A stretch of 64,000 bases of DNA. Source: Malikia spinosa. GTDB taxonomy: Bacteria > Pseudomonadota > Gammaproteobacteria > Burkholderiales > Burkholderiaceae_C. The position numbers and the translations under genes are program-made. The notes beneath the pieces were generated by a model. That model was not told where the DNA came from and did no database searches. It was given only the letters and a program-made list of their open reading frames with translations. The stretch spans positions 1-64,000 of the forward strand of contig NZ_PVLR01000024.1 of assembly GCF_002980625.1 (NCBI RefSeq), written 5' to 3'. Shown here piece after piece: positions 3,024-14,655 of the stretch (position 1 is the first letter of the stretch; every line of letters begins with the position of its first letter).

Positions 3024-3944
3024 TCAAATTTTCTGCAGTGCCTCCCAGCGCTGCAGCAGCGCGGCGGCGCTGGCCTCGGGTTGTTCGGCGCCGGTGATGG
3101 CGCGCACGACCGCGACCGAGCCGACGCCGCTGGCGGCGATCTCAGGCAGCTGTTCGGCGCTGATGCCACCGATCGCGACCAGGCTGCGCGTGCGCATCAG
3201 CCGCGCGTAGGCCTGCAGCCGGCCCGTGCCCTGCGGCGGCGTGACCATGGCTTTCAGCGTGGTCGGGAACACCGCGCCCAGCGCCAGGTAGCTCGGGTTG
3301 ACCGCGTCGGCGCGCAGCATTTCAGCGTAGCCGTGCGTGCTGAGTCCCAGCCGCAGGCCGGCGTCGCGGATCTCGCCCAGTTCGGCCGCCGACAGTTGGT
3401 CGAGGTCTTCCTGGCCCAGGTGCACGCCGTAGGCGCCAGCCGCGATGGCTTCGCGCCAGTGGTCGTTGATGAACAGCAGGCTGGCCGTTCCCTGCACGGC
3501 GGCGACCGCGGTGCGGATCTCGGCGCGCACGGCGGCGCCATCTTGCGACTTGAAGCGCAGCTGCACCGTCGGCAGGCCGGCGCGTGCTATGCGGCCGACC
3601 CATTCGGCGCTGGGCAGCACCGCGTAGAGGCCGAGCTCGTGCGGGCAGGGGGCAAAGGCCGGACCCGCCACTCCCTGGCCTGGTTGTTCGGCGATGCCGA
3701 AATCCAGCGGGTCGCAGGGCCAGCACTCAGTGGCGAAGCGGCCGGTGCGTTCGCTCTGGCGTTGCCAGGCGCTTGCCACTACCTCGGCATCGGTCGGGAT
3801 GAAGCCGAGCCGGCGCGCGGCGGCGTAGCAGACCGCGTAGGGGCTGGCGTCGGCAGGAACAGCCTGCCGATCGGCGTTGCTGTCCAGGCCGAGCGCGGCG
3901 TGGTGCCGCAAGATCTGCTGCATCAGTTCGAGGGGGGTACTCAT
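3024..3944 (-). CDS. thiE: Thiamine phosphate synthase
   Basis: The enzyme joins hydroxymethylpyrimidine diphosphate and thiazole phosphate to thiamine phosphate in the cytoplasm. The C-terminal two thirds shows the ThiE barrel signatures: QLRFK, FINDHW with GVHLGQEDL, GLSTHG, LGAVFPTTLK and VAIGGIS. At 306 aa it is about 100 residues longer than a minimal ThiE of roughly 210. The N-terminal extension (residues 1-100) matches no domain I recognise. It is the last gene of the thiO-thiS-thiG-thiE run, with 7 bases to thiG. Confidence 0.92.
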   Translation of the reverse strand: MSTPLELMQQILRHHAALGLDSNADRQAVPADASPYAVCYAAARRLGFIPTDAEVVASAWQRQSERTGRFATECWPCDPLDFGIAEQPGQGVAGPAFAPCPHELGLYAVLPSAEWVGRIARAGLPTVQLRFKSQDGAAVRAEIRTAVAAVQGTASLLFINDHWREAIAAGAYGVHLGQEDLDQLSAAELGEIRDAGLRLGLSTHGYAEMLRADAVNPSYLALGAVFPTTLKAMVTPPQGTGRLQAYARLMRTRSLVAIGGISAEQLPEIAASGVGSVAVVRAITGAEQPEASAAALLQRWEALQKI

Positions 3945-3951
3945 GGCGGAC

Positions 3952-4758
3952 TCAGGGCTGGTGCCAGAAGGGGGTGCCGAGCACCGGGGTGCTGGGCTGG
4001 GCGGCGTCCTGCGCGGTCATCGCACCGGCCAGGAAGGCGCTGCGGCCGGCCTGCACCGCGTCGGCAAAGGCGCCGGCCATGGTGACGGGTTCCTGCGCTA
4101 GCGCGACCGCGGTGTTGAGCAGCACGGCGTCATAGCCCCATTCCATCACCTGGCAGGCGTGCGAGGGCAGGCCCAGGCCGGCATCGACGATCAGCGGTAC
4201 GTCGAGGCGCTCGCGCAGCGTGCGCAGCGCATAGGGGTTGATCGGGCCGCGGCCGGTGCCGATCGGCGCCGCCCAGGGCATGACGGCCTGGCAGCCGATG
4301 TCGACCAGGCGCTGGCACAGCACCAGGTCGTCGGTGCTGTAGGGCAGCACCTTGAAGCCGGACTTGATCAGGCGCTCGGCGGCCTCGACCAGGTTCAGCG
4401 TGTCGGGCTGCAGCGTGTAGTCGTCGCCGATCAGCTCGAGCTTGATCCAGTCGGTCTCGAACACCTCGCGCGCCATTTCGGCGGTGGTGATGGCTTCCTG
4501 CAGGCTGTGGCAGCCGGCGGTGTTGGGCAGCACCGGCACGCCCATCTTCTTGAGCAGCGGCCAGAAGCCCTGGCTGGCGTCGAGGCCGCTGGCACCCTGG
4601 CGCCGCAGCGAGGCGGTCAGCATGCAGGGCTGGCTGCGCGCCACGGCGGCTTCAAGCACGGCAGGCGAGGGGTAGCGCGAGGTGCCCAGCAGCAGTCGGC
4701 TGATGAAGGTCTCGCCGTAGAGGACCAGCGGGTCTTGGATGGAGGCGGCTGTGGTCAT
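3952..4758 (-). CDS. thiG: Thiazole synthase
   Basis: ThiG builds thiamine thiazole phosphate from deoxyxylulose phosphate, dehydroglycine and ThiS thiocarboxylate. The 268-aa length is typical. The active-site Lys is K106 in [11 protein letters not shown], and PNTAGC (78-83) and the phosphate-binding APIGTGRG segment are present. Dehydroglycine should come from the ThiO oxidase encoded upstream and sulfur from ThiS at 4809-5006, so the local genes supply both. Confidence 0.96.
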
Positions 4759-4808: not shown

Positions 4809-5006
4809 TCAGCCGCCAGTCACGGGGGCGATGATTTCGATCTTGTCGCCTTCGGCCAGCGCCGTCTGGGCGTACTGGCCGCGCGGCACGAAGCGCAGGT
4901 TGAGCGCGGCGGCGAACGGGCCGCTGGCGGCAATGGCTTGCACCGCGTCGGCCAGGGTGGCGTGGTCGGGCAGCTGGTGGACCTGGTTGTTGATGAGGAC
5001 TTGCAT
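4809..5006 (-). CDS. thiS: Sulfur carrier protein ThiS
   Basis: This 65-aa beta-grasp protein ends in the diagnostic Gly-Gly (IIAPVTGG) that is adenylated and thiocarboxylated for thiazole formation. The start was placed at ATG 5006 (MQVLINNQ), which gives the normal ThiS length; a longer frame upstream has no ThiS similarity. It lies 8 bases after thiO and 50 before thiG. No thiF-type activating enzyme is in the window. Confidence 0.94.
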
Positions 5007-5014
5007 GTTGGGGC

Positions 5015-6136
5015 TCAGGCCGGGGTGGCGGCCAGGGTGGTGAAGCGCAGCTGCAGCTGTTCGGCCAGTTCGGTGCTGCCTTGCTGCATCCATTCGAGCA
5101 CGGCGTCGAGCATGGCCGGCGAGATCATGAAGCCATGCCGGTACAGGCCGTTGACCTGCAGCACGCGCGGCGCGACCTCATGCACCGCCGGCAGATTGTC
5201 GGGCAGGGTTGGGCGGCAATGTGCGCAGAGCTCCAGGATACGCCCCTCGCCAAAGCCGGGGTGGACCGCGTAGGCGGCGCTGAGCAGCTCGAGCGTCGAG
5301 CGCACGCTGGCCGGGCTCATGTCGTCGCTCTCGATCTCGGTGGCGCCGATCACGAACACATGGTTTTCCTTCGGCGCGATGTAGATCGGATAGCGCGGGT
5401 GCAGCAGCCGGGTCGGGCGCTGCAGCGTGACATCGGGCGCGTGCAGGCGCACGACTTCGCCGCGCACGCCGCGCAGGGCTTGCGGTGCCTGCCAGTCGGC
5501 GCGCGCGCCCAGGCCGCGGCAGTCGAGCACCCAGCCGCCCTGGTCGGACTGGATGTCCTGCGCCTGTTCCAGCGTCAGCGCGGTATTCCATTCGATGCTG
5601 ATGCCGCGCGCGGCCAGTGAATCGACCAGTGCGGCCAGCAGCTGACGGTTGTCGAGCTGGCCTTCCTCGGGCAAGTACAGGCCTTGGTGGAAGCGCTGCG
5701 CCAGCGTGGGTTCGAGCTCGGCCAAGCCGCGGCCGTCCAGCGTCCGCGGCTTGGGCAGCTCGGGCAGGGCGCGGCCGGTCTGGGCCAGCAGGCCCGAGAA
5801 GCGCTGCGCCTCTGGCGCGTCCTGGCGGTGCCAGACGATCAGCGTGCCGTTGCGCTGGAAGTAGACCGGGCGCGTGAGGCCTTTGATCAGCTGCGGCCAG
5901 CGCGTCAGCGCGTACTGGCCCATCGCGACCACGCTCGGCTCGGTGATGGCGGATTCGGCCAGCGGCGCCAGCATGGCGGCGGCGACCCAGGCCGCGGCAC
6001 CGCTGCCGTCGGGCTGGCCGGCATCGACGAGGCGGACCGGGTGGCCGGCCTGCGCCAGCGACAGCGCGAGCAGACGGCCCATCAGGCCGGCGCCGAGCAC
6101 CAGCACGGGCAGTTGCGATTGGACGGATTCAGGCAT
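5015..6136 (-). CDS. thiO: Glycine oxidase ThiO (FAD-dependent)
   Basis: ThiO oxidises glycine to dehydroglycine for ThiG, using FAD. The 373-aa protein starts with a dinucleotide fold ([14 protein letters not shown]) and ends with [13 protein letters not shown], typical of the D-amino-acid oxidase/ThiO family. The start at 6136 is chosen for its GAAGGAG ribosome binding site. It heads the thiO-S-G-E run; only 61 bases separate it from the divergent thiD. I see no TPP riboswitch in that gap and no thiC in the window. Confidence 0.9.
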
Positions 6137-6197
6137 GGCGACACTCCTTCTGGACCAGAGAACAGGCAGCGCCCGGGCGCTGCGGGATAATTTTGCG

Positions 6198-7052
6198 ATG
6201 AGCCAAGATTCCACTCTTCATTACGCACGCGTCCTGACCATTGCCGGCAGCGATTCCGGTGGCGGCGCCGGCATCCAGGCCGATCTCAAGACCTTCGCCG
6301 CGCTGGGCTGCTACGGCATGAGCGCGATCACGGCGCTGACGGCGCAGAACACGGTCGGCGTGCGCGCGATCCACGGCGTGCCGGCCGCCTTCCTGAAGGA
6401 GCAGATCGCCGCCGTGATCGAGGACATCGGCGTCGATGCGGTCAAGATCGGCATGCTGCACGCGCCCGAGATCGTCGAGGTGGTGGCCTGGGCCATCGAT
6501 CACTACCAGCTGCAGCAGGTGGTGCTGGACCCGGTGATGGTCGCGACCAGTGGCGACGCGCTGATCCGGCACGAGACCATTGCCTCGCTGGTGTCCGAGC
6601 TGTTCCCGCGCGCCACGCTGGTCACGCCCAACCTGGACGAGGCCGCGCTGCTGCTGGGCCGTCCGGTGCGCGAGGTGGCCGACCTCGACGCCGCCTGCGC
6701 TGATCTGCTCGGCCTGGGTGCCAAAGGCGTTCTGCTCAAGGGCGGCCATCTGGGCGGAGAACAACTCACCGACCTGCTGGCGCGGGCCGACCAGCCCGCC
6801 GACCAATGGCTGCGCCTGAGCGGTCCGCGCATCGCCACCCGCAACTCGCATGGCACCGGCTGCACCCTGTCCTCGGCGATTGCTGCCCACTTGGCGCTGG
6901 GCCTGGAGCTGGCCGAGGCCGTCCAGGCGGCGCATGCCTATATCCGTGGCGCGATCGCCGCTGGCGCCCAGGTGCGCACCGGCCAGGGCCATGGACCGCT
7001 GAACCACGGCTATGCCCCGCTGCCGATGCGGCTGCTGCGCGCACAGGACTGA
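6198..7052 (+). CDS. thiD: Hydroxymethylpyrimidine/phosphomethylpyrimidine kinase
   Basis: ThiD phosphorylates HMP twice to HMP diphosphate, the second substrate of ThiE. The 284-aa protein has the ribokinase-fold signatures IAGSDSGGGAGIQAD near the N-terminus and NSHGTGCTLSSA near the C-terminus, with the catalytic Cys in GTGC. It is transcribed away from thiO and converges on the operon at 7067-12931, ending 14 bases from it. That places the HMP kinase beside a candidate pyrimidine salvage operon. Confidence 0.95.
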   Translation: MSQDSTLHYARVLTIAGSDSGGGAGIQADLKTFAALGCYGMSAITALTAQNTVGVRAIHGVPAAFLKEQIAAVIEDIGVDAVKIGMLHAPEIVEVVAWAIDHYQLQQVVLDPVMVATSGDALIRHETIASLVSELFPRATLVTPNLDEAALLLGRPVREVADLDAACADLLGLGAKGVLLKGGHLGGEQLTDLLARADQPADQWLRLSGPRIATRNSHGTGCTLSSAIAAHLALGLELAEAVQAAHAYIRGAIAAGAQVRTGQGHGPLNHGYAPLPMRLLRAQD

Positions 7053-7066
7053 GTCGCGCTGTCGCT

Positions 7067-7840
7067 TCATGACATCACCAGGCCGCCGTCGACGATCAGG
7101 GTCTGGCCGGTCATGAAGCGGCTCCAGTCCGAGGCCAGGAACAGCACCGGGCCGGTCACGTCCTCCGGCGTGGCGATGCGGCCCAGCGGGGTGCGCGCGA
7201 TGATCTGCTCCTTGACCGCCTCGCGAGTGGCGCGGCTGGACTCGGTCGGGCTGACCAGTCCGGGTGCCACGCAGTTGACCCGGATGCCCAGGCTGCCGAG
7301 CTCGCTGGCGAGCTGGCGGCTGAAGCCCATCAGCGCCGCCTTGGCCGTGGCGTAGTCGTGGTAGGGCAGGCTGGGCTGCTGCACCAGGTCGGTCACGAGG
7401 TTGACGATGCTGCCCTGCAGCCGCTGGCGCATGGCCGGCAGCACGGCCTGGCACAGCTGATAGCTGGCCTGGACCGCGCCGTCGAACTGGCTCTGGTAGG
7501 CGTCCCAGGGGGTTTCCCAGAAGCGGGCGCGGGTTTCCGGGTCGAAGCGATACGGCGCGAAGGCGTTGTTGACCAGCACATCGATGCGTCCGGTCAGCGC
7601 CAGCACCTCGTCGACCATGGCGCGCACGGCGGCGGGGTCGCGCACATCGGCGGCAATCGCCCAGGCCGGCACACCGTGCGACTCGCAGCGCGCCACCACT
7701 TCGCGCGCGGCATCGGCACGCTCGCGGTAGTTGACCACCACCATCGCGCCTTCGCGCGCGAAGGCCTCGGCGATCGCGGCGCCGATGCCCCGGCTGGCGC
7801 CGGTCACCAGCACCACCTGCTGCTCGAACGCCCGCTTCAT
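7067..7840 (-). CDS. Short-chain dehydrogenase/reductase of the TPP-regulated operon
   Basis: This 257-aa classical SDR is probably an NADP(H)-dependent carbonyl reductase. The cofactor motif TGASRGIG is at 13-20, NNAF (91-94) replaces the usual NNAG, and Y163/K167 form YATAK. The catalytic Ser position, 13 residues before Tyr, is Thr150 (NLVTD). It is the last gene of the riboswitch operon and overlaps the binding-protein gene by 4 bp (ATGA). A thiamine-regulated oxoacyl-ACP-reductase homologue (oarX) is described in comparative studies of thiamine genes, as I recall; this may be that family. I propose that it reduces the aldehyde made by the LuxC-like enzyme. Confidence 0.85.
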   Translation of the reverse strand: MKRAFEQQVVLVTGASRGIGAAIAEAFAREGAMVVVNYRERADAAREVVARCESHGVPAWAIAADVRDPAAVRAMVDEVLALTGRIDVLVNNAFAPYRFDPETRARFWETPWDAYQSQFDGAVQASYQLCQAVLPAMRQRLQGSIVNLVTDLVQQPSLPYHDYATAKAALMGFSRQLASELGSLGIRVNCVAPGLVSPTESSRATREAVKEQIIARTPLGRIATPEDVTGPVLFLASDWSRFMTGQTLIVDGGLVMS

Positions 7841-8874
7841 GGCTTGATCGGCAGCAGGTCGGCTCCGACGATGCTGGACACCGCGATCTCGCGCGACAGC
7901 ACGCCCAGCTCGCGGTAGACCTGCAGCCCGCGCTGCAGCATGGCGCTGTCGAGGCTGCCCAGGCCCTTCTTTTGCGTCAGCGCCGAGATGCTCGACGCAT
8001 TGCGCAGCTTGATCACTTCCAGGTTGATAGCCTCGTTCTGGCCGTCAATGGCGACGCGGGTCGCCAGGCGGGCGGCTTCCTCGGGGGTGCGCATCATCCA
8101 TTGCGCGCTGTCGCGAAAACCCGTCAGGAAGCGGCGCAGCAGCGCCTTTTGCTGCTGGTAGGTGTCCTCGCGCACCACCAGCAGGTCGCTGCTGAGGTTG
8201 AGCTGCTGGCGCACTTCCATCACGTTGACCTCGCCCAGGCCGCGCTGGCGTCCCACCAGCAGGCCGGTGTCGGTGGCGGCGGTGGCATCGACCTGGCCCT
8301 GCATCAGCGGTGCGAAGTTCAGCAGCCCGGTGGGCACCAGCGTGATGTCGGCTTCGCTCAGTCCTGCCGAATGCAGCAGCACCTGCAGGTTCTGCCGCGT
8401 GCCACTCGACAGGCTGTAGACGCCGACGCGCTTGCCCTTGAGGTCAGCCGGCTTGGTGATGCCGCGCGACTTGAGCGACACCACGTTGAAGACGTTCTGC
8501 GGATAGACGTCGTAGATCGCGCGCAGCTTTTCGCCCTTGTCGAGCGCGGCAAACAGCGAGCCCGGATCGGTGAAGGCGACATCGGCCTGGCCGCTCAACA
8601 GGTTGCGCAGCGCGTCGCCGCCGCCGGCGCCCGGCAGATAGCTGAATTCGATGCCCTGGGCGCGGAAGAAGCCCTTGTCGGCTTCGACCAGCAGATTCGT
8701 GATCTCCGAGATCGGCTTGCTCCAGCCGGCCAGCACCACCTTGTCGAGCGGCTGGCCCTGGGCCTGCGCCAGGTTGACCAGGTCGCCCAGCGGGCCGAAG
8801 CCGCTGACCAGTCCGCCCACGGCCAGATAACGTGCCAGACCTTGGGCCAGATCGCGTCGTGAAAGCTTGTGCAT
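7837..8874 (-). CDS. ABC transporter substrate-binding protein (THI5/NMT1-like)
   Basis: This 345-aa periplasmic binding protein of the NMT1/THI5-like family typically binds pyrimidine precursors of thiamine or aliphatic sulfonates. The N-terminus carries a twin-arginine-type signal (SRRDLAQGL) followed by a hydrophobic stretch ending near AQAQG. The domain core has PGAGGGDALRNLLSGQADVA and TDPGSLFAAL. The start at 8874 follows AAGGAAT. The TPP riboswitch upstream of the operon makes a thiamine-related ligand (a pyrimidine or its acid) more likely than a sulfonate; the ligand is inferred. Confidence 0.85.
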   Translation of the reverse strand: MHKLSRRDLAQGLARYLAVGGLVSGFGPLGDLVNLAQAQGQPLDKVVLAGWSKPISEITNLLVEADKGFFRAQGIEFSYLPGAGGGDALRNLLSGQADVAFTDPGSLFAALDKGEKLRAIYDVYPQNVFNVVSLKSRGITKPADLKGKRVGVYSLSSGTRQNLQVLLHSAGLSEADITLVPTGLLNFAPLMQGQVDATAATDTGLLVGRQRGLGEVNVMEVRQQLNLSSDLLVVREDTYQQQKALLRRFLTGFRDSAQWMMRTPEEAARLATRVAIDGQNEAINLEVIKLRNASSISALTQKKGLGSLDSAMLQRGLQVYRELGVLSREIAVSSIVGADLLPIKP

Positions 8875-8912
8875 CAGAGTATTCCTTGGGTTGAAAAACC
8901 AGTGTGTGTCAG

Positions 8913-9653
8913 TCAATGCCAGCGTCGCTCCAGCGCACCGAGCAGGGCGTAGGAAGTGATTCCCAGCCCCGCGATCAGTGCCAGCGCGGCGAACATCAGC
9001 GCGGTGTCCATCGAGCCCTGGGCGCCGATGATGACCGCCCCCAGGCCATGGCTGGCGCTGATGAATTCGCTGACCACGGCGCCGACCCAGGCCAACACCA
9101 GCGCCACGCGCAGGCCGGCAGCCAGGGTGTGGCGGCCGGCTGGCAGCTGCAGCCGCCACAGGGTCTGCCAGCGGCTCGCGCCCAGCGCCCGGAACAGTTC
9201 GAGCTGGCGCGCATCGGTCTGATCCAGCGCGCTCAGCGTGTTCTCGAGCAGCGGGAAGAAGCAGATCAGCGCCGTCATCACCACCGTCGGCAGCAGGCCG
9301 AAGCCGAACCAGACGATGAACAGCGGCGCCAGCGCCAGCTTCGGCGTCACCTGGCTCAGCACCAGATAGGGAGTGAGCCAGCGGCGCAGGCGCCGGCTTT
9401 GTCCGAGCAAGAGGCCGCAGCCAAAGCCCAGCGCGGCGCCCGCGGCCAGCCCGAGGCCGACCGACAGCAGGGTCTGGGCCAGATGCGGCCACCAGTAGCC
9501 AGTCGCAAAACCCTGCCCGAGCGCGCGCGCGATCTGCGACGGCGCCGGCAGCACCAGCGCCGACAGCTGCCACCAGCCAGTCGAGAGCTCCCAGGCCAGC
9601 AGCAGGCCCAGGCCAAGCGCGGCCGATATGCCAGCATCAAGCAGGCGCTTCAT
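8913..9653 (-). CDS. ABC transporter permease (ThiX/SsuC-like)
   Basis: This 246-aa inner-membrane permease of the BPD_transp_1 family has about six hydrophobic segments. The EAA-like loop is near ELFRALGASRWQTLWRLQLPA. Its start overlaps the stop of the ATPase gene by 4 bp (ATGA), so translation is coupled. It forms the importer with the ATPase and the Tat-exported binding protein. Confidence 0.87.
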   Translation of the reverse strand: MKRLLDAGISAALGLGLLLAWELSTGWWQLSALVLPAPSQIARALGQGFATGYWWPHLAQTLLSVGLGLAAGAALGFGCGLLLGQSRRLRRWLTPYLVLSQVTPKLALAPLFIVWFGFGLLPTVVMTALICFFPLLENTLSALDQTDARQLELFRALGASRWQTLWRLQLPAGRHTLAAGLRVALVLAWVGAVVSEFISASHGLGAVIIGAQGSMDTALMFAALALIAGLGITSYALLGALERRWH

Positions 9654-10408
9654 CGCGTGCGCTCCAGTTGCCGGCGCAGGTGGGCGCATTGGGCATGGAA
9701 GCTGTCCGCGTCGCGCCAATCGGCGCTGCGCGGGCGTTCGGCGCCAACCTGCAACTGGGCCTGCAGTCGGCCGCGGTCCAGCAGGCTGACCTGGTCGCCC
9801 AGGAAGGCCGCTTCGCTCAGGTCATGGGTTACGAACAATACCGTGCTGCCCTGTTCGGCGCAGACCGCCAGCAGGTCCTGCTGCAGTTCCTCGCGCGTCA
9901 GCGCGTCGAGCGCGGCAAACGGCTCGTCCATGCACAACAGCGCGGGCTGCTGCATCCAGGCTCTGGCCACCGCGACCCGGCTTTGCTGGCCGCCCGACAG
10001 CTGCGAAGGCCGGCGCTGCGCCTGCTCCGCCAGCCCCAGTCGCTGCAGCCAGTGCTGGGCCAGTTCGCGGTCTGCTTGGGTCACGCGCTGCTTTAGCGAA
10101 ATCGGCAGCAGCACGTTGTCGAGCACGCTGAGCCAGTCGAGCAGGGTCGGGCGCTGGAACACGAAGGCGACTTCGCGCAGCGGGCCGCGCACCGGTTCGC
10201 CGCGCCACAGCACCCGGCCGCTGCTCGGCAGCAGCAGGCCGGCGGCGAGCTTGAGCAGGCTGGTCTTGCCGCAGCCGCTGCGGCCCAGCAGGCAGTGGAA
10301 TTGCCCGGCCGCCAGCTGCAGGTCGATGCCGTGCAGCACCGGCTGCCCGTCCGCATAGGCAAAGCCGATCTGCTCAAGGCGCAACAGGGGCGTCGCTTCA
10401 GATTTCAT
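9650..10408 (-). CDS. ABC transporter ATP-binding protein (ThiZ/SsuB-like)
   Basis: This 252-aa nucleotide-binding subunit has Walker A GRSGCGKTS, signature LSGGQQSR, Walker B ALLCMDEPF and switch His in VTHD. It belongs to the nitrate/sulfonate/taurine/HMP importer group. Its first 11 bases overlap the end of the LuxC-like gene, an unusual coupling of a transporter to a reductase that supports a joint function in uptake and conversion. Confidence 0.9.
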   Translation of the reverse strand: MKSEATPLLRLEQIGFAYADGQPVLHGIDLQLAAGQFHCLLGRSGCGKTSLLKLAAGLLLPSSGRVLWRGEPVRGPLREVAFVFQRPTLLDWLSVLDNVLLPISLKQRVTQADRELAQHWLQRLGLAEQAQRRPSQLSGGQQSRVAVARAWMQQPALLCMDEPFAALDALTREELQQDLLAVCAEQGSTVLFVTHDLSEAAFLGDQVSLLDRGRLQAQLQVGAERPRSADWRDADSFHAQCAHLRRQLERTR

Positions 10409-11858
10409 AGTCAGTCAGGCGTTCGGCCAGCGCTTCGGCCGAGGCTTCCAGATCGACCAGCGTCACCAGGTCGAGCAGGCTCGGGCGGCCGTCGTTGTGC
10501 CAGCCCGGCGCCGGCTGCGCCATCTGGCCGATGGCGCTCAGGCGGGTGACCCCCACCGCGGCCAGCTGGCCGGCCAGCGCCTGCAGCTGCTCCGGCGCCA
10601 GCGCCAGGCCCGCGCTTTGCAGATAGCGCCGCTGCGGCGCCAGACAGGCCGGCAACTGGTCCAGGCTGTCGAGCGCCACCACCTGCACGCAGCGGTGCAG
10701 CGGGCCGGGCGCGATCGGCGTCGGCCGGTCGCGGTAGACCACGTTCCAGCTGTGTTCCGGGTGGCCCAGCAGTTGCACGCTGGCGTCGTCGAATGCCGCC
10801 CATTCCAGGCTGCTGCGCCATTGCGCGATCTGCGCCGCTTCCGCCAGTCCGGGCTGCGGGCGTGGGAATTTGGCTTGCAGCTGCTGCAGCCCGGCCGCCA
10901 GCCGTTGGGCGAATTCCTGCGGCGTGACCTGGCCGCCGCGCTCGACGTAGAACACCTGCGGCGAGTAGCAGCCCTGCTGCTCGTGCCGGACCAGGTCATC
11001 GGCGGCCAGCCGGGCGATGGCTGGCGCACGGCCCGCGCTGAGCGCGCAGCGGCCGACGACACCAAAGCTCAGCTTGTGGCCGTGCGGCAGGAAGCGCACG
11101 CCGGGCGGCATCTGCGCCTGCAGGTCGCGCAAGGCCGCATCGCCGCCATAGGCCAGCACGGTATCAGCCTGTTGCCAGACGGCGCGCGGGGTCTGGCTGT
11201 CCTGCCGGTCCCACCACAGCACCGCGACGGCGGCGCCCAGGCGCGGCTCCAGCCGGGCCAGCGTCTGGGCGAACACCGTGGCAAACACCGGCTCGCCGGC
11301 CGAGACCTTGCCGATGTTACCGGCCTTGGCCAGCAGGCCGCAGACCAGGCTCCACAGTGGCAGGCCCGGCACGTTGCCGGCCCAGACATGGGCCAGCAGA
11401 TCGGGCCCTTCGGCATGGGTCCAGCCACCGGTCACGCGCGGCTCGAAGCCGTCGAGCAGCGCCGGATTGCCGAGGTCCTCGACCAGGAAACGCTGCAGCT
11501 GCAGCGCGCGGAAAGTCCGCAGCGTGGGGCCCAGGTTGACCCGGATCATCTCGGGCGAGAAGCCGGTGCTCAGCGGCAGCCAGCGCAGCAGCAACTGATG
11601 TTCAGGCGATGCCGGGTCGAGCAGCTGCTGGATCACGCGGTCGATCGCCTGCACGATGTCGCGCACCGGCAGCGCGCGCAGGCCCTGGCGTCCCTGCCCG
11701 CGCACCTGATCGCACAGCGCCTGCAGCTGATCGGGCGTCAGCGCCGGCACCTCGAAGGCATGGCCAGCGGGCAGCTGCGGCGCCGGCAGCTCGCGCCAGA
11801 CCAGGTGATCGGCATCGAGCCCTGGCAGATGGCCGACCCGGAAGACTCCCAGCGTCAT
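10398..11858 (-). CDS. LuxC-like acyl-CoA/acyl-protein reductase
   Basis: This 486-aa protein is similar to LuxC (aldehyde-dehydrogenase fold), which reduces an activated acyl group to an aldehyde with NADPH. The catalytic Cys is probably C297 in HEQQGCYSPQVFYVE, matching the LuxC active-site neighbourhood. A glycine-rich cofactor region (HVWAGNVPGLPLWS, about 157-170) precedes it. It overlaps the LuxE-like gene by 4 bp (ATGA). No luxAB or luxD is present, and the operon sits under a TPP riboswitch, so luminescence is not its role. I infer reduction of a thiamine-derived carboxylate to an aldehyde. Confidence 0.82.
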   Translation of the reverse strand: MTLGVFRVGHLPGLDADHLVWRELPAPQLPAGHAFEVPALTPDQLQALCDQVRGQGRQGLRALPVRDIVQAIDRVIQQLLDPASPEHQLLLRWLPLSTGFSPEMIRVNLGPTLRTFRALQLQRFLVEDLGNPALLDGFEPRVTGGWTHAEGPDLLAHVWAGNVPGLPLWSLVCGLLAKAGNIGKVSAGEPVFATVFAQTLARLEPRLGAAVAVLWWDRQDSQTPRAVWQQADTVLAYGGDAALRDLQAQMPPGVRFLPHGHKLSFGVVGRCALSAGRAPAIARLAADDLVRHEQQGCYSPQVFYVERGGQVTPQEFAQRLAAGLQQLQAKFPRPQPGLAEAAQIAQWRSSLEWAAFDDASVQLLGHPEHSWNVVYRDRPTPIAPGPLHRCVQVVALDSLDQLPACLAPQRRYLQSAGLALAPEQLQALAGQLAAVGVTRLSAIGQMAQPAPGWHNDGRPSLLDLVTLVDLEASAEALAERLTDYEI

Positions 11859-12931
11859 GCGCGCGCGGCCTGGACGAAGGACTCGACCGCCAGCGAGCAG
11901 CCCTTGGCCTCGGCGCCTTCGGCACGTCCCAGCAACTGGAAGCCGTCAGGTCCGACGATGCCGACATCCTCGGTCAGGATGCTGAGCACTGAGTTCCAGT
12001 TGGCCAGATCGGTGTGCACCAGGATGCCGCGCTCGCCGTCGGGCACCGACTGGCCGGTGAGCGGGTCGATGGCACGGGTGCGCATCCAGTGCGGGCCGCG
12101 CTTGACCGAGGGCAGCACGGCATTGCCGCGGTCGTAGCACTGGGTGCTGAGCTCGGTCATGCCGTACATGTTGAGGCAACGCTCGCGCGACACGCCGAAC
12201 ACCTCGGACAGCTGGGCGTAGAAGGGCTCCATCGGGATCTCGCGCGAGCGACCCTTGAAGCCGCCGGTGTCGAGCAGCCAGCTGCCCGCCGGCAGCCGGA
12301 AGTCCTCGTTCAGGCCTGCCAGTGCATCCATCAGGTGCACGAAGCTGTAGCTGGCGCCCAGCAGCGCGACCGGCTGCTGGTCCCGGCGGGCGCCGCGCAG
12401 GAATTCCAGCAGGCCGGCCTCATCCATGCCTTCGAGATTCCAGTAATGGCCGCTGCCGGGTCGACCGAAGTCCTGCCGGCAGAGTTCGAGGTAATGCGCC
12501 AGCGAGGAGTTCGGCAGCGCGGTCTCGTCCGGGAACAGGATGGCCATGCGGATCGGGGTCGGCCCGGCACAGTCGGCAAAGTGGCGGCGCATCGAGGCGT
12601 CATAGACCCGCAGGTCGGGGTGGTAATGGCGCCCCTTGTGCTCGTCGCCGCCGGTGGTGCCGCTGGTCATGAAGACGCGCTCGCAGGCCTGGATCGGGGT
12701 GCAGCTCAGCGTGAGCTGCTTGAAGCCGTTGACCGGCACCGCCGGGATGTCCTGCCAGCGGCGCACCGTGGCCGGGGTGCGGCCGCGCGACTGGCAGAAG
12801 CGCGCATAGGCCGGGTTGTGGCGCACCTGGTGCGCGAACAGGCGCAGGGCCATGACATTGAAGGCCGCGTCGTCCGTGTCGGGCAAGGCGATGAAGTCCA
12901 GCAGGTCCTGGATCAGGTGGGTCGTTGCCAT
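11855..12931 (-). CDS. LuxE-like acyl-protein synthetase (carboxylate-activating)
   Basis: This 358-aa member of the LuxE family (adenylate-forming) activates a carboxylate as acyl-AMP and passes it to its own Cys and then to LuxC. Visible motifs are MTSGTTGG (88-95), MYGMTE (255-260) and a C-terminal GAEAKGCSL with K343 and C345. That Cys is near the end of the protein, as is the acylated Cys of LuxE. The start at 12931 gives a standard length; a longer frame would run into the riboswitch. It is the first gene after the TPP riboswitch. The real substrate is unknown. Confidence 0.82.
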   Translation of the reverse strand: MATTHLIQDLLDFIALPDTDDAAFNVMALRLFAHQVRHNPAYARFCQSRGRTPATVRRWQDIPAVPVNGFKQLTLSCTPIQACERVFMTSGTTGGDEHKGRHYHPDLRVYDASMRRHFADCAGPTPIRMAILFPDETALPNSSLAHYLELCRQDFGRPGSGHYWNLEGMDEAGLLEFLRGARRDQQPVALLGASYSFVHLMDALAGLNEDFRLPAGSWLLDTGGFKGRSREIPMEPFYAQLSEVFGVSRERCLNMYGMTELSTQCYDRGNAVLPSVKRGPHWMRTRAIDPLTGQSVPDGERGILVHTDLANWNSVLSILTEDVGIVGPDGFQLLGRAEGAEAKGCSLAVESFVQAARA

Positions 12932-12998
12932 GGCAGCTTTCGAGAGCGGGGCTGCCAGGCCCGGCGCGGCGTCATGAAGGCGACCGCAGATCCGGGAC

Positions 12999-13085
12999 CA
13001 GCTTCCCTGCGCGAGGATTACCTCAATCAGGTTCAAAGGGACTTTCTCAGCCGGCGCCCCGATGGATGCCAACACCCCCAGCTTC
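12999..13085 (-). ncRNA. TPP riboswitch (THI element)
   Basis: On the minus strand the conserved blocks of the thiamine pyrophosphate aptamer appear in order: GGGGTG, a variable hairpin, GGCTGAGA, CCCTTTGAACCTGATTGAG, GGTAATCC and GCGCAGGGAAGC. It lies about 70 bases before the LuxE-like start codon, so it should repress the whole six-gene operon when thiamine pyrophosphate is plentiful. I could not decide between terminator formation and masking of the ribosome binding site. Ends are approximate. Confidence 0.95.
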
Positions 13086-13115
13086 AGGTCCTGAGCAAGC
13101 AGGACGCTGAATATT

Positions 13116-14168
13116 CTACGTCCGGGCCGATGACCCTGCCACGCCCAGCAGCTCGTGCAGGCGCGGGCTGGTGGTGGTGTACTGCAGCAGCTGGCGCTGC
13201 TCGGGGCGCAGATAGGCCGCCAGCGCGAAGGCCGCCAGGGTCGCCTCGTGGAAGCCGCACAGCAGCAGCTTGCGCTTTCCAGGATAGTGGCAGATATCCC
13301 CGACCGCGTGGATGCCAGCCAGGGCGGTGGCCTGGGTCGCCGGATCGACTGTGAGCAGTTTGCGCTCCATGGCCAGCCCCCAGTCTGCTATCGGACCCAG
13401 CTTGGGGCTCAGGCCCAGGCGCGGCAGCAGCGCATCGACGGCCAGCGTTTCGCTGCTGTCGTCGCCGGTGGCGATCTGCAGCGCCACTAGCCGGCTGCCC
13501 TCTGCCGCCGTCTCGATGCCGACCGGCTGGCCGACCTTGAGTGTGATCACGCCACGGGCCACGGCCTGCTGCAGCGCCTGTTCCAGCGCGGCTTCGGCCT
13601 TGAACCTGCTATTGCGGTGCAGCAACGTGACGCTGGCGCAATGCCCGCTGTCGGCCAGCTGCAGCGCGGTTTCGAGCGCAGCGTCCTCGCCACCCATCAC
13701 GATCACACGCTGACCTTGCAGCCTGATCGCATCGGTCTGGTAGTAGTGGATCTGGCTGCTCTCGAAGGCCGATAGTCCGTCGATGGCGACCCGGCGCGGC
13801 ACGAAGGCGCCGACGCCGGCGGCGATGATGACCGCGCGCGCCAGGAACACCTGGCCAGAGCTGGTCTGCAGCTGCCAGCCGCCGTCAGCCGTGGGCGCCA
13901 GGCTCATGACCTGCTGGCCCAGGTGCAGCGGGACCTTGAACGGTGCGATCTGCTGCTGCAGCCGCTCGGCCAGCTCGCGCCCCGAGCAGACCGGTATGCC
14001 CGGCAGGTCGTAGATCGGCTTCTCGCCGTAGAGCTCGACGCACTGGCCGCCGACGTGCGGCAGGGCATCGACGATCTGGCAGGCGATTTCCTGCAGCCCG
14101 AGCTGGAAGGCCTGGAACAGCCCGACCGGACCCGCGCCGATGATCAAGGCGTCGGTCATCAGCGGCAT
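13116..14168 (-). CDS. Ferredoxin/flavodoxin--NADP(+) reductase, thioredoxin-reductase-like
   Basis: This 350-aa FAD and NAD(P)H oxidoreductase has the two dinucleotide folds of TrxR-like FNRs: GAGPVGLFQA near the N-terminus and MGGEDAALETA in the middle. The FAD-contact segment HAVGDICHYPG follows near 291-301. There is no CxxC redox pair, unlike thioredoxin reductase. It lies 12 bases after fdxA on the same strand, so the two likely form an electron-transfer pair. A second ATG at 14159 is an alternative start. Confidence 0.88.
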   Translation of the reverse strand: MPLMTDALIIGAGPVGLFQAFQLGLQEIACQIVDALPHVGGQCVELYGEKPIYDLPGIPVCSGRELAERLQQQIAPFKVPLHLGQQVMSLAPTADGGWQLQTSSGQVFLARAVIIAAGVGAFVPRRVAIDGLSAFESSQIHYYQTDAIRLQGQRVIVMGGEDAALETALQLADSGHCASVTLLHRNSRFKAEAALEQALQQAVARGVITLKVGQPVGIETAAEGSRLVALQIATGDDSSETLAVDALLPRLGLSPKLGPIADWGLAMERKLLTVDPATQATALAGIHAVGDICHYPGKRKLLLCGFHEATLAAFALAAYLRPEQRQLLQYTTTSPRLHELLGVAGSSART

Positions 14169-14180
14169 CGGGTGTCCGGA

Positions 14181-14510
14181 TCAGCGCTGGAGCAGGTCCA
14201 GCTTGCCGGTCTTGTCCTTGAACTGCTCGTGGTCGGGCAGCGGCGCCTTGCGCTTGGTGATGCTCTTCCAGTTCGGCAGCAGGGCCAGCTCGGCGTTGAT
14301 CTTGGTCATGTGCTGCTGGTCCTTCGGCACGTCTTCTTCGGCGTAGATGGCGCCGACCGGGCACTCGGGGATGCAGACCGCGCAGTCGATGCACTCGTCC
14401 GGATCGATGGTCAGGAAGTTCGGGCCTTCGCGGAAGCAGTCGACGGGACATACGTCCACACAGTCGGTGTATTTGCAGGCGATGCAGGCTTCGGTAACAA
14501 CGTGAGTCAT
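14181..14510 (-). CDS. fdxA: 7Fe ferredoxin FdxA
   Basis: This 109-aa ferredoxin has the FdxA Cys pattern: C9, C17 and C50 for a [3Fe-4S] cluster and C21, C40, C43 and C46 for a [4Fe-4S] cluster. The helical C-terminal tail is typical of the group. It is probably co-transcribed with the downstream FNR-like gene. Its location next to the cys operon suggests a role as low-potential donor, but that is inference. Confidence 0.93.
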
Positions 14511-14655
14511 TTGGGGTGGGCTGCCGCGGCAGCGCTGGGAGGTGAATCTATGGAGAAAGCCGGCGCAGCCCCTAGACAGGGCAGGCCGGCGCTGCTCAGA
14601 CCCGCGATTTTAGGGCCTCGCGGGCCTCATCGCTTGATCAAGGACAAGAAGCCGG

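Follow-up and report, generated by a model that had tools for sequence, protein, structure and literature searches.

A TPP-riboswitch-led LuxE-LuxC-SDR operon from Malikia spinosa with a predicted role in the salvage of an oxidised thiamin pyrimidine

The window analysed here, a stretch of 64,000 nucleotides from Malikia spinosa (contig NZ_PVLR01000024.1), carries on its minus strand an operon headed by a thiamin pyrophosphate (TPP) riboswitch. It is followed, in this order, by genes for a LuxE-like and a LuxC-like enzyme, the ATPase and the permease of an ATP-binding cassette (ABC) importer, a binding protein of the THI5/NMT1 type and a short-chain dehydrogenase/reductase (SDR), as identified with Pfam and Rfam (Table 1). 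The reading we hold to be the probable one is that of a thiamin-repressed operon salvaging the oxidised pyrimidine moiety of vitamin B1: 4-amino-2-methylpyrimidine-5-carboxylate would be imported and reduced via the aldehyde to 4-amino-5-hydroxymethyl-2-methylpyrimidine (HMP), with substrate, direction, product and shut-off all predicted. An earlier note on this DNA had proposed a TPP aptamer at positions 13085-12999, six genes of the families named above and a thiD gene converging on their end. The aptamer was recovered by RF00059 with 58 bits at 12987-13089, the six families were borne out by Pfam (3.6e-18 for LuxE to 2.9e-60 for the SDR), and so was thiD (PF08543, 2.8e-93).

The link of this operon to thiamin is close to certain. 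A scan of the LuxE protein against 84,980 species genomes gave 79 relatives, found in Comamonadaceae, Alcaligenaceae, Methylobacterium, Enterovirga, Azospirillum, Paenibacillus, Halalkalibacter, Ammoniphilus and others. All six genes were kept in 67 of these 79 loci, and contig ends truncated most of the remainder. When RF00059 was run genome-wide in the genomes of 36 of the relatives and the matches were mapped back to the loci, an aptamer was located upstream, and in the same direction, of a LuxE, thiD-LuxE or transporter-LuxE unit in 31 genomes from three classes. The pairing of LuxE/LuxC homologues and a THI5-like importer with TPP riboswitches, for which the earlier note had suggested a search, is thus widespread. 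Within the family of the window, a close LuxE was present in 36 of 401 genomes, and a TPP aptamer, detected with RF00059 and a local covariance model, lay upstream in 30/30 loci examined (the window, L083 and L088-L115); 16 of these aptamers exceeded the curated cut-off and the other 14 scored 47-54 bits (E <= 4e-06). The gene set also occurred in plasmid records of Pantoea, Azospirillum, Priestia, Niallia, Pseudomonas, Lactiplantibacillus and Levilactobacillus, with an aptamer at all nine plasmid loci examined (49 bits for the one from Priestia). At the distant LuxE homologues L084 and L085 a TPP aptamer was sought and none was found. Thiamin control of related operons, as the earlier note would have it, therefore extends over Beta-, Alpha- and Gammaproteobacteria and Bacilli, and because the linkage recurs in many genera it is far beyond chance. 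The constant core consists of the aptamer, LuxE, LuxC and the SDR, and it is the importer that varies.

Several loci deserve mention in their own right. Plasmids of 10 kb from L. plantarum SRCM103295 and 21 kb from L. brevis (L117 and L118) encode the same four proteins under identical accessions; the gene set on these plasmids of two food lactobacilli is a recent transfer. On a megaplasmid of Niallia taxi (L120, 5688-5984), a tandem pair of TPP aptamers stands ahead of the operon. Plasmid p1 of Pseudomonas silvicola (L121, 8028-10306) has an intact aptamer, with LuxE and LuxC each split over two frames, either a decaying copy or the result of sequencing errors. In two metagenome-assembled genomes (MAGs) of Alcaligenaceae (L018 and L023) the permease, the binding protein and the SDR were present, and the interval from LuxC to the permease showed no ATPase resembling the reference. 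Finally, a contig labelled as a Chitinophaga pinensis MAG (L003, CALPRQ020000002.1) carries the operon and the thi cluster; since its proteins are 90-99% identical to those of the window, we regard it as Malikia-like and either mislabelled or contaminating.

Carboxylate reduction is very likely the chemistry of the operon, judging from the enzyme families and their catalytic residues. The LuxE-like protein matched PF04443 with 66 bits (cut-off 24.9), its acyl-accepting Cys345 (KGCSL) aligned with the matching cysteine of Photobacterium phosphoreum LuxE (7xc6_E), and the GCS motif was found in 85/85 homologues. LuxC matched PF05893 with 290 bits (cut-off 21); its catalytic Cys297 (QQGC) aligned with the QQAC of 7xc6_A, and the cysteine was kept in all 87 homologues, within QQxC in 84 and within QAGC in the three from Pantoea. 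The YxxxK motif of the SDR was likewise invariant (80/80).

The fatty acid reductase LuxC-LuxE of luminous bacteria shares with the operon both families, both catalytic cysteines and the adjacency of the genes. The window proteins are distant from it, however: the luciferase-type long-chain equivalogs NF052244 and NF052251 of NCBIfam were reached with only 60.1 of 550 and 69.7 of 750 bits, Pfam detected none of luxA, luxB and luxD among the operon genes, and TPP control and an SDR come in addition. Furthermore, the luminous system acts on a fatty acid, whereas a small heteroaromatic acid is predicted here. In the AlphaFold model of LuxE (pLDDT 90.7), the closest folds were phenylacetate-CoA ligases (PaaK, Z 25.6), followed by other enzymes activating aryl acids, among them the phenazine protein EhpF (3hgv, Z 21.4). 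Fatty-acyl adenylating domains ranked lower (Z ~15), and the alignment with the solved LuxE chain 7xc6_E extended over no more than 118 residues. The modelled fold is compatible with a small aromatic acid as substrate, which agrees, at the level of the fold, with the small ring acid that the earlier note had expected. A luciferase-type fatty-aldehyde operon, or a lipid-related reductase operon that happened to acquire a TPP riboswitch, would fit the public names of these genes ('long-chain fatty acid--CoA ligase', 'acyl-CoA reductase'), but the equivalog scores, the missing lux genes, the consistent TPP linkage and the fold of LuxE make it hardly credible.

To our knowledge, the nearest chemical parallel to the LuxE-LuxC-SDR trio is found in the cluster for the phenazine D-alanylgriseoluteic acid, which combines an AMP-binding EhpF, an aldehyde-dehydrogenase-type EhpG and a FabG-like SDR, EhpK. 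Griseoluteic acid, a related product of this cluster, carries a hydroxymethyl group on the ring, and the names and the product suggest that EhpF and EhpG may reduce a carboxyl group. The likeness is one of gene kinds and of the ANL fold shared by EhpF and the LuxE model. The Ehp cluster serves antibiotic biosynthesis and not vitamin salvage, and we know of no riboswitch or importer associated with it.

Like the ThiXYZ pyrimidine importers, the importer of the operon stands behind a TPP riboswitch and consists of a THI5/NMT1-type binding protein, an ABC permease and an ATPase. The AlphaFold model of the binding protein (pLDDT 90.7) matched best the formylaminopyrimidine (FAMP)-binding protein 3ix1 (Z 33.6, rmsd 2.3 over 293 residues); thiamin-bound 4nmy came second (Z 31.1) and the HMP synthase Thi5 lower (Z ~28). 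From the fold, a pyrimidine-type ligand is predicted. The earlier note had also described the binding protein as exported by the Tat pathway. An RR (Tat-like) motif is indeed present in the protein of the window; as only 12 of 39 aligned binding proteins have it, Tat export was rejected as a feature of the system.

In the salvage of base-degraded thiamin, ThiY imports FAMP, which YlmB and TenA convert to HMP. The operon resembles this system in its TPP-regulated ABC importer and in a ThiY-like binding protein, nearest in fold to 3ix1, that would feed ThiD. It differs in having three reductive enzymes in place of YlmB and TenA. Could it nevertheless be an ordinary ThiXYZ-type importer of HMP or FAMP, the LuxE-LuxC-SDR trio being merely co-regulated and serving another function? 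The affinity of the binding protein to 3ix1 speaks for this possibility, as does the presence of TenA, which acts downstream of FAMP, in 23 of 38 mixed carrier genomes that were scored for kinases, ThiC, ThiG and TenA, that of the window included. Nevertheless, we consider it rather improbable: 15 of these 38 carriers lack TenA, and the enzymes rather than the importer are the constant part, since a TPP aptamer still leads the trio in loci without the ABC importer or with another transporter in its place. By the features tested, the operon belongs to the families PF04443 and PF05893 and to the group of ThiY-type importers, and is neither a luciferase-type reductase nor a TenA route.

The variants of the importer are informative as to the substrate. 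Pantoea and L062 have nothing but the aptamer, LuxE, LuxC and the SDR, with no linked importer. In the plasmids of the Lactobacillus group, in Niallia and in L076 the aptamer is followed by an NCS2 nucleobase permease (PF00860), LuxE, LuxC and the SDR; L073 has the same four genes and a downstream thiD, and no aptamer was found in its fragment. A tree of LuxE plus LuxC placed the NCS2 form in one fully supported clade inside Bacilli, and the linked importer is missing twice in that tree. The nesting of Pantoea among Alphaproteobacteria indicates horizontal transfer. In L071 (Limnohabitans), which retained its ABC importer, a gene inserted between aptamer and LuxE matched best in NCBIfam the putative HMP transporter CytX (219 bits, below the cut-off of 310). 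Uptake by CytX, ThiV or NCS-type transporters likewise acquires the pyrimidine moiety under TPP control, yet it brings in HMP itself, so that no reduction is needed. The loci with the enzyme trio and no linked importer might also be taken to mean that the cell itself produces the carboxylate, on an undescribed route to HMP that serves de novo synthesis or repair. This we regard as very improbable, as most loci do have a linked importer and an enzyme forming the acid was not found among the linked genes.

A pyrimidine acid is the likely substrate. It is favoured because of the fold of the binding protein, the nucleobase-family transporters, the linkage to thiD and the scarcity of kinases that the thiazole or whole thiamin would require. 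In 20 of 79 loci the operon has a thiD gene as its neighbour, and in loci of the Ramlibacter type thiD stands upstream within the same operon. The kinase ThiM for hydroxyethylthiazole (HET) exceeded its cut-off in 6 of the 38 carriers (23 bits against a cut-off of 27 in the window genome), and thiamin pyrophosphokinase (TPK) was absent from every proteobacterial carrier among them, the window genome included. As both are mostly absent, HET or thiamin would be unusable by known kinases in most hosts, including that of the window. ThiC was absent in 11 of the 38 carriers, nine of which retained ThiG, and both ThiC and TenA in seven, six of them with ThiG, several of the ThiC-less carriers being draft genomes or MAGs of unknown completeness. 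Neither ThiC nor TenA was found in the genomes of Ramlibacter lithotrophicus, Ramlibacter paludis and Limnohabitans JirII-31.

These kinase counts also bear on the thiazole side of the vitamin. Other plausible oxidised thiamin acids are 4-methylthiazole-5-acetate and thiamin acetic acid, which the same chemistry would turn into HET or thiamin. The earlier note had left the choice between an acid of the pyrimidine, of the thiazole and of the whole thiamin; kinases, importers and binding-protein fold favour the first. The thiazole side draws on the second rank of thiamin-binding 4nmy among the structural matches of the binding protein, and on the Ammoniphilus locus L074, the only one hinting in that direction, where the HET kinase ThiM (13840-14646) follows the SDR after 24 bases. 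We judge it unlikely, given that most hosts could not use its products by the known kinases and that the NCS2 and CytX-type partners and the thiD neighbours suggest a pyrimidine.

Besides the ThiM gene of L074, several observations weigh against the salvage of a pyrimidine acid. An adjacent TPP aptamer was not seen with RF00059 at 5 of the 36 sampled loci. The swap of the ABC importer for an NCS2 permease was one evolutionary event, and the best scores of these proteins are those for xanthine permeases; they therefore indicate a class of substrate and not a compound. Loss of ThiC is no commoner in carriers than in non-carriers: in the 401 genomes of the window's family, ThiC was missing from 11 of 36 carriers (31%) and from 131 of 365 non-carriers (36%), so that the idea of an operon enriched in ThiC-less genomes was rejected. 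The operon is therefore no marker of HMP auxotrophy and no simple replacement of ThiC. Moreover, the acid is missing from the list of B1 vitamers that a study of 2024 gives for coastal waters (PMC10881298). It is, on the other hand, a natural thiamin metabolite known from rat urine, according to the title of Neal and Pearson 1964, as cited in PMC7780320.

For the salvage of the pyrimidine acid, we propose the following sequence of events. At low TPP the leader would be open, and TPP bound to it would shut the operon when the vitamin is plentiful. The ThiY-like ABC importer, as its fold and gene linkage suggest, would take up 4-amino-2-methylpyrimidine-5-carboxylate. LuxE would adenylate the carboxylate at the expense of ATP and load the acyl group onto its C-terminal cysteine, from which LuxC would take it over on a cysteine of its own and, using NAD(P)H, reduce it to the aldehyde; both steps are those expected from families and catalytic residues. 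The SDR, by its family, would reduce the aldehyde to HMP, which would reach thiamin phosphate via ThiD and ThiE. Phosphorylation of HMP is established ThiD chemistry.

TPP binding and gene control by the leader are predicted from its match to RF00059. On another contig of the same genome, a second TPP riboswitch was located some 0.5 kb ahead of thiC. No transcription terminator was found past the aptamer of the operon. A predicted hairpin (TGGCAGC...GCTGCCA), which would bury the LuxE start codon, is a possible, weakly supported translational expression platform, its folding z-score not being significant (Table 1). The longest LuxE frame begins with a GTG at 13075 and runs into the aptamer; the start was therefore placed at the likely ATG at 12931 (MATTHLIQ), about 55 bases past the aptamer. 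We treat the six genes as one operon because four of the five gene junctions overlap, by 4-11 bases; overlap throughout, as the earlier note had it, did not hold for the fifth.

Table 1. Features of the operon and of the neighbouring thiamin genes in the window
Feature	Positions	Strand	Evidence
TPP riboswitch aptamer RF00059, operon leader	12987..13089	-	cmscan 58 bits, gathering threshold 54.3, E 8.9e-09
Predicted hairpin over the LuxE start codon	12926..12956	-	fold of 12915-12990, z -0.93, not significant
LuxE-like acid-activating (adenylating/acyl-Cys) enzyme, 358 aa	11855..12931	-	PF04443 3.6e-18
LuxC-like acyl-thioester reductase, 486 aa	10398..11858	-	PF05893 2.7e-86
ABC importer ATPase, ThiZ/TauB-like	9650..10408	-	PF00005 (ABC_tran) 1.1e-31
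ABC importer permease, ThiX/SsuC-like	8913..9653	-	PF00528 (BPD_transp_1) 3.4e-33
THI5/ThiY-like substrate-binding protein, predicted exported	7837..8877	-	PF09084 (NMT1/THI5) 4.6e-47
SDR oxidoreductase, predicted aldehyde-to-alcohol step	7067..7840	-	PF13561 2.9e-60
thiD, HMP/HMP-P kinase, converging on the SDR end of the operon (HMP kinase part of the open reading frame 5874-7052)	6195..7052	+	PF08543 2.8e-93; TIGR00097 above cut-off
thiO, thiazole-branch glycine oxidase, in the neighbouring cluster	5015..6148	-	TIGR02352 above cut-off
thiS, sulfur carrier, neighbouring cluster	4809..5012	-	similar protein in the orthologous position at other loci; ends in GG
thiG, thiazole synthase, neighbouring cluster	3952..4758	-	PF05690 6.7e-99

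Seen from the operon, thiO, thiS and thiG lie past thiD. The open reading frame 3024-3944 is probably thiE; in the relative L029, thiE follows thiG. Directly upstream of the operon and on the same strand, positions 13116-14510 encode a thioredoxin-reductase-like flavoprotein and a ferredoxin-like protein, possibly an electron-transfer pair, whose membership in the operon is conjectural. Four tRNA genes were located on the minus strand in two groups (211-283 and 2697-2977), the first two being identical in sequence. Searches for phage carriage and for anti-phage defence families gave no match.

No published description of this operon, of LuxE/LuxC together with thiamin or a riboswitch, or of the pyrimidine aldehyde intermediate turned up in the literature searched, which took in neither supplements nor most subscription journals; the earlier note, too, knew of no pathway of this logic. 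The operon may be listed, unnamed, in the supplement of a riboswitch regulon survey of 2013 (PMC3766115). On balance, it probably represents an undescribed branch of B1 metabolism, in which LuxE, LuxC and the SDR would carry out the ATP-dependent reduction of 4-amino-2-methylpyrimidine-5-carboxylate to HMP, and which would have spread horizontally through Proteobacteria and Bacilli, small plasmids of the Lactobacillus group included.

In microbial communities, auxotrophy for thiamin and above all for HMP is very common. It is met by HMP, aminomethylpyrimidine (AmMP), FAMP, HET and carboxylated HET (cHET), and this list decides who grows with whom. If our reading is true, the oxidised pyrimidine acid would join these compounds, and microbes of soil, water, plants and fermented food could use an oxidised thiamin metabolite as a vitamer. 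A widespread gene pair, at present named 'long-chain fatty acid--CoA ligase' and 'acyl-CoA reductase', would have its annotation corrected. The reading would also explain the source of HMP for some bacteria that lack ThiC and TenA but have an intact thiazole branch.

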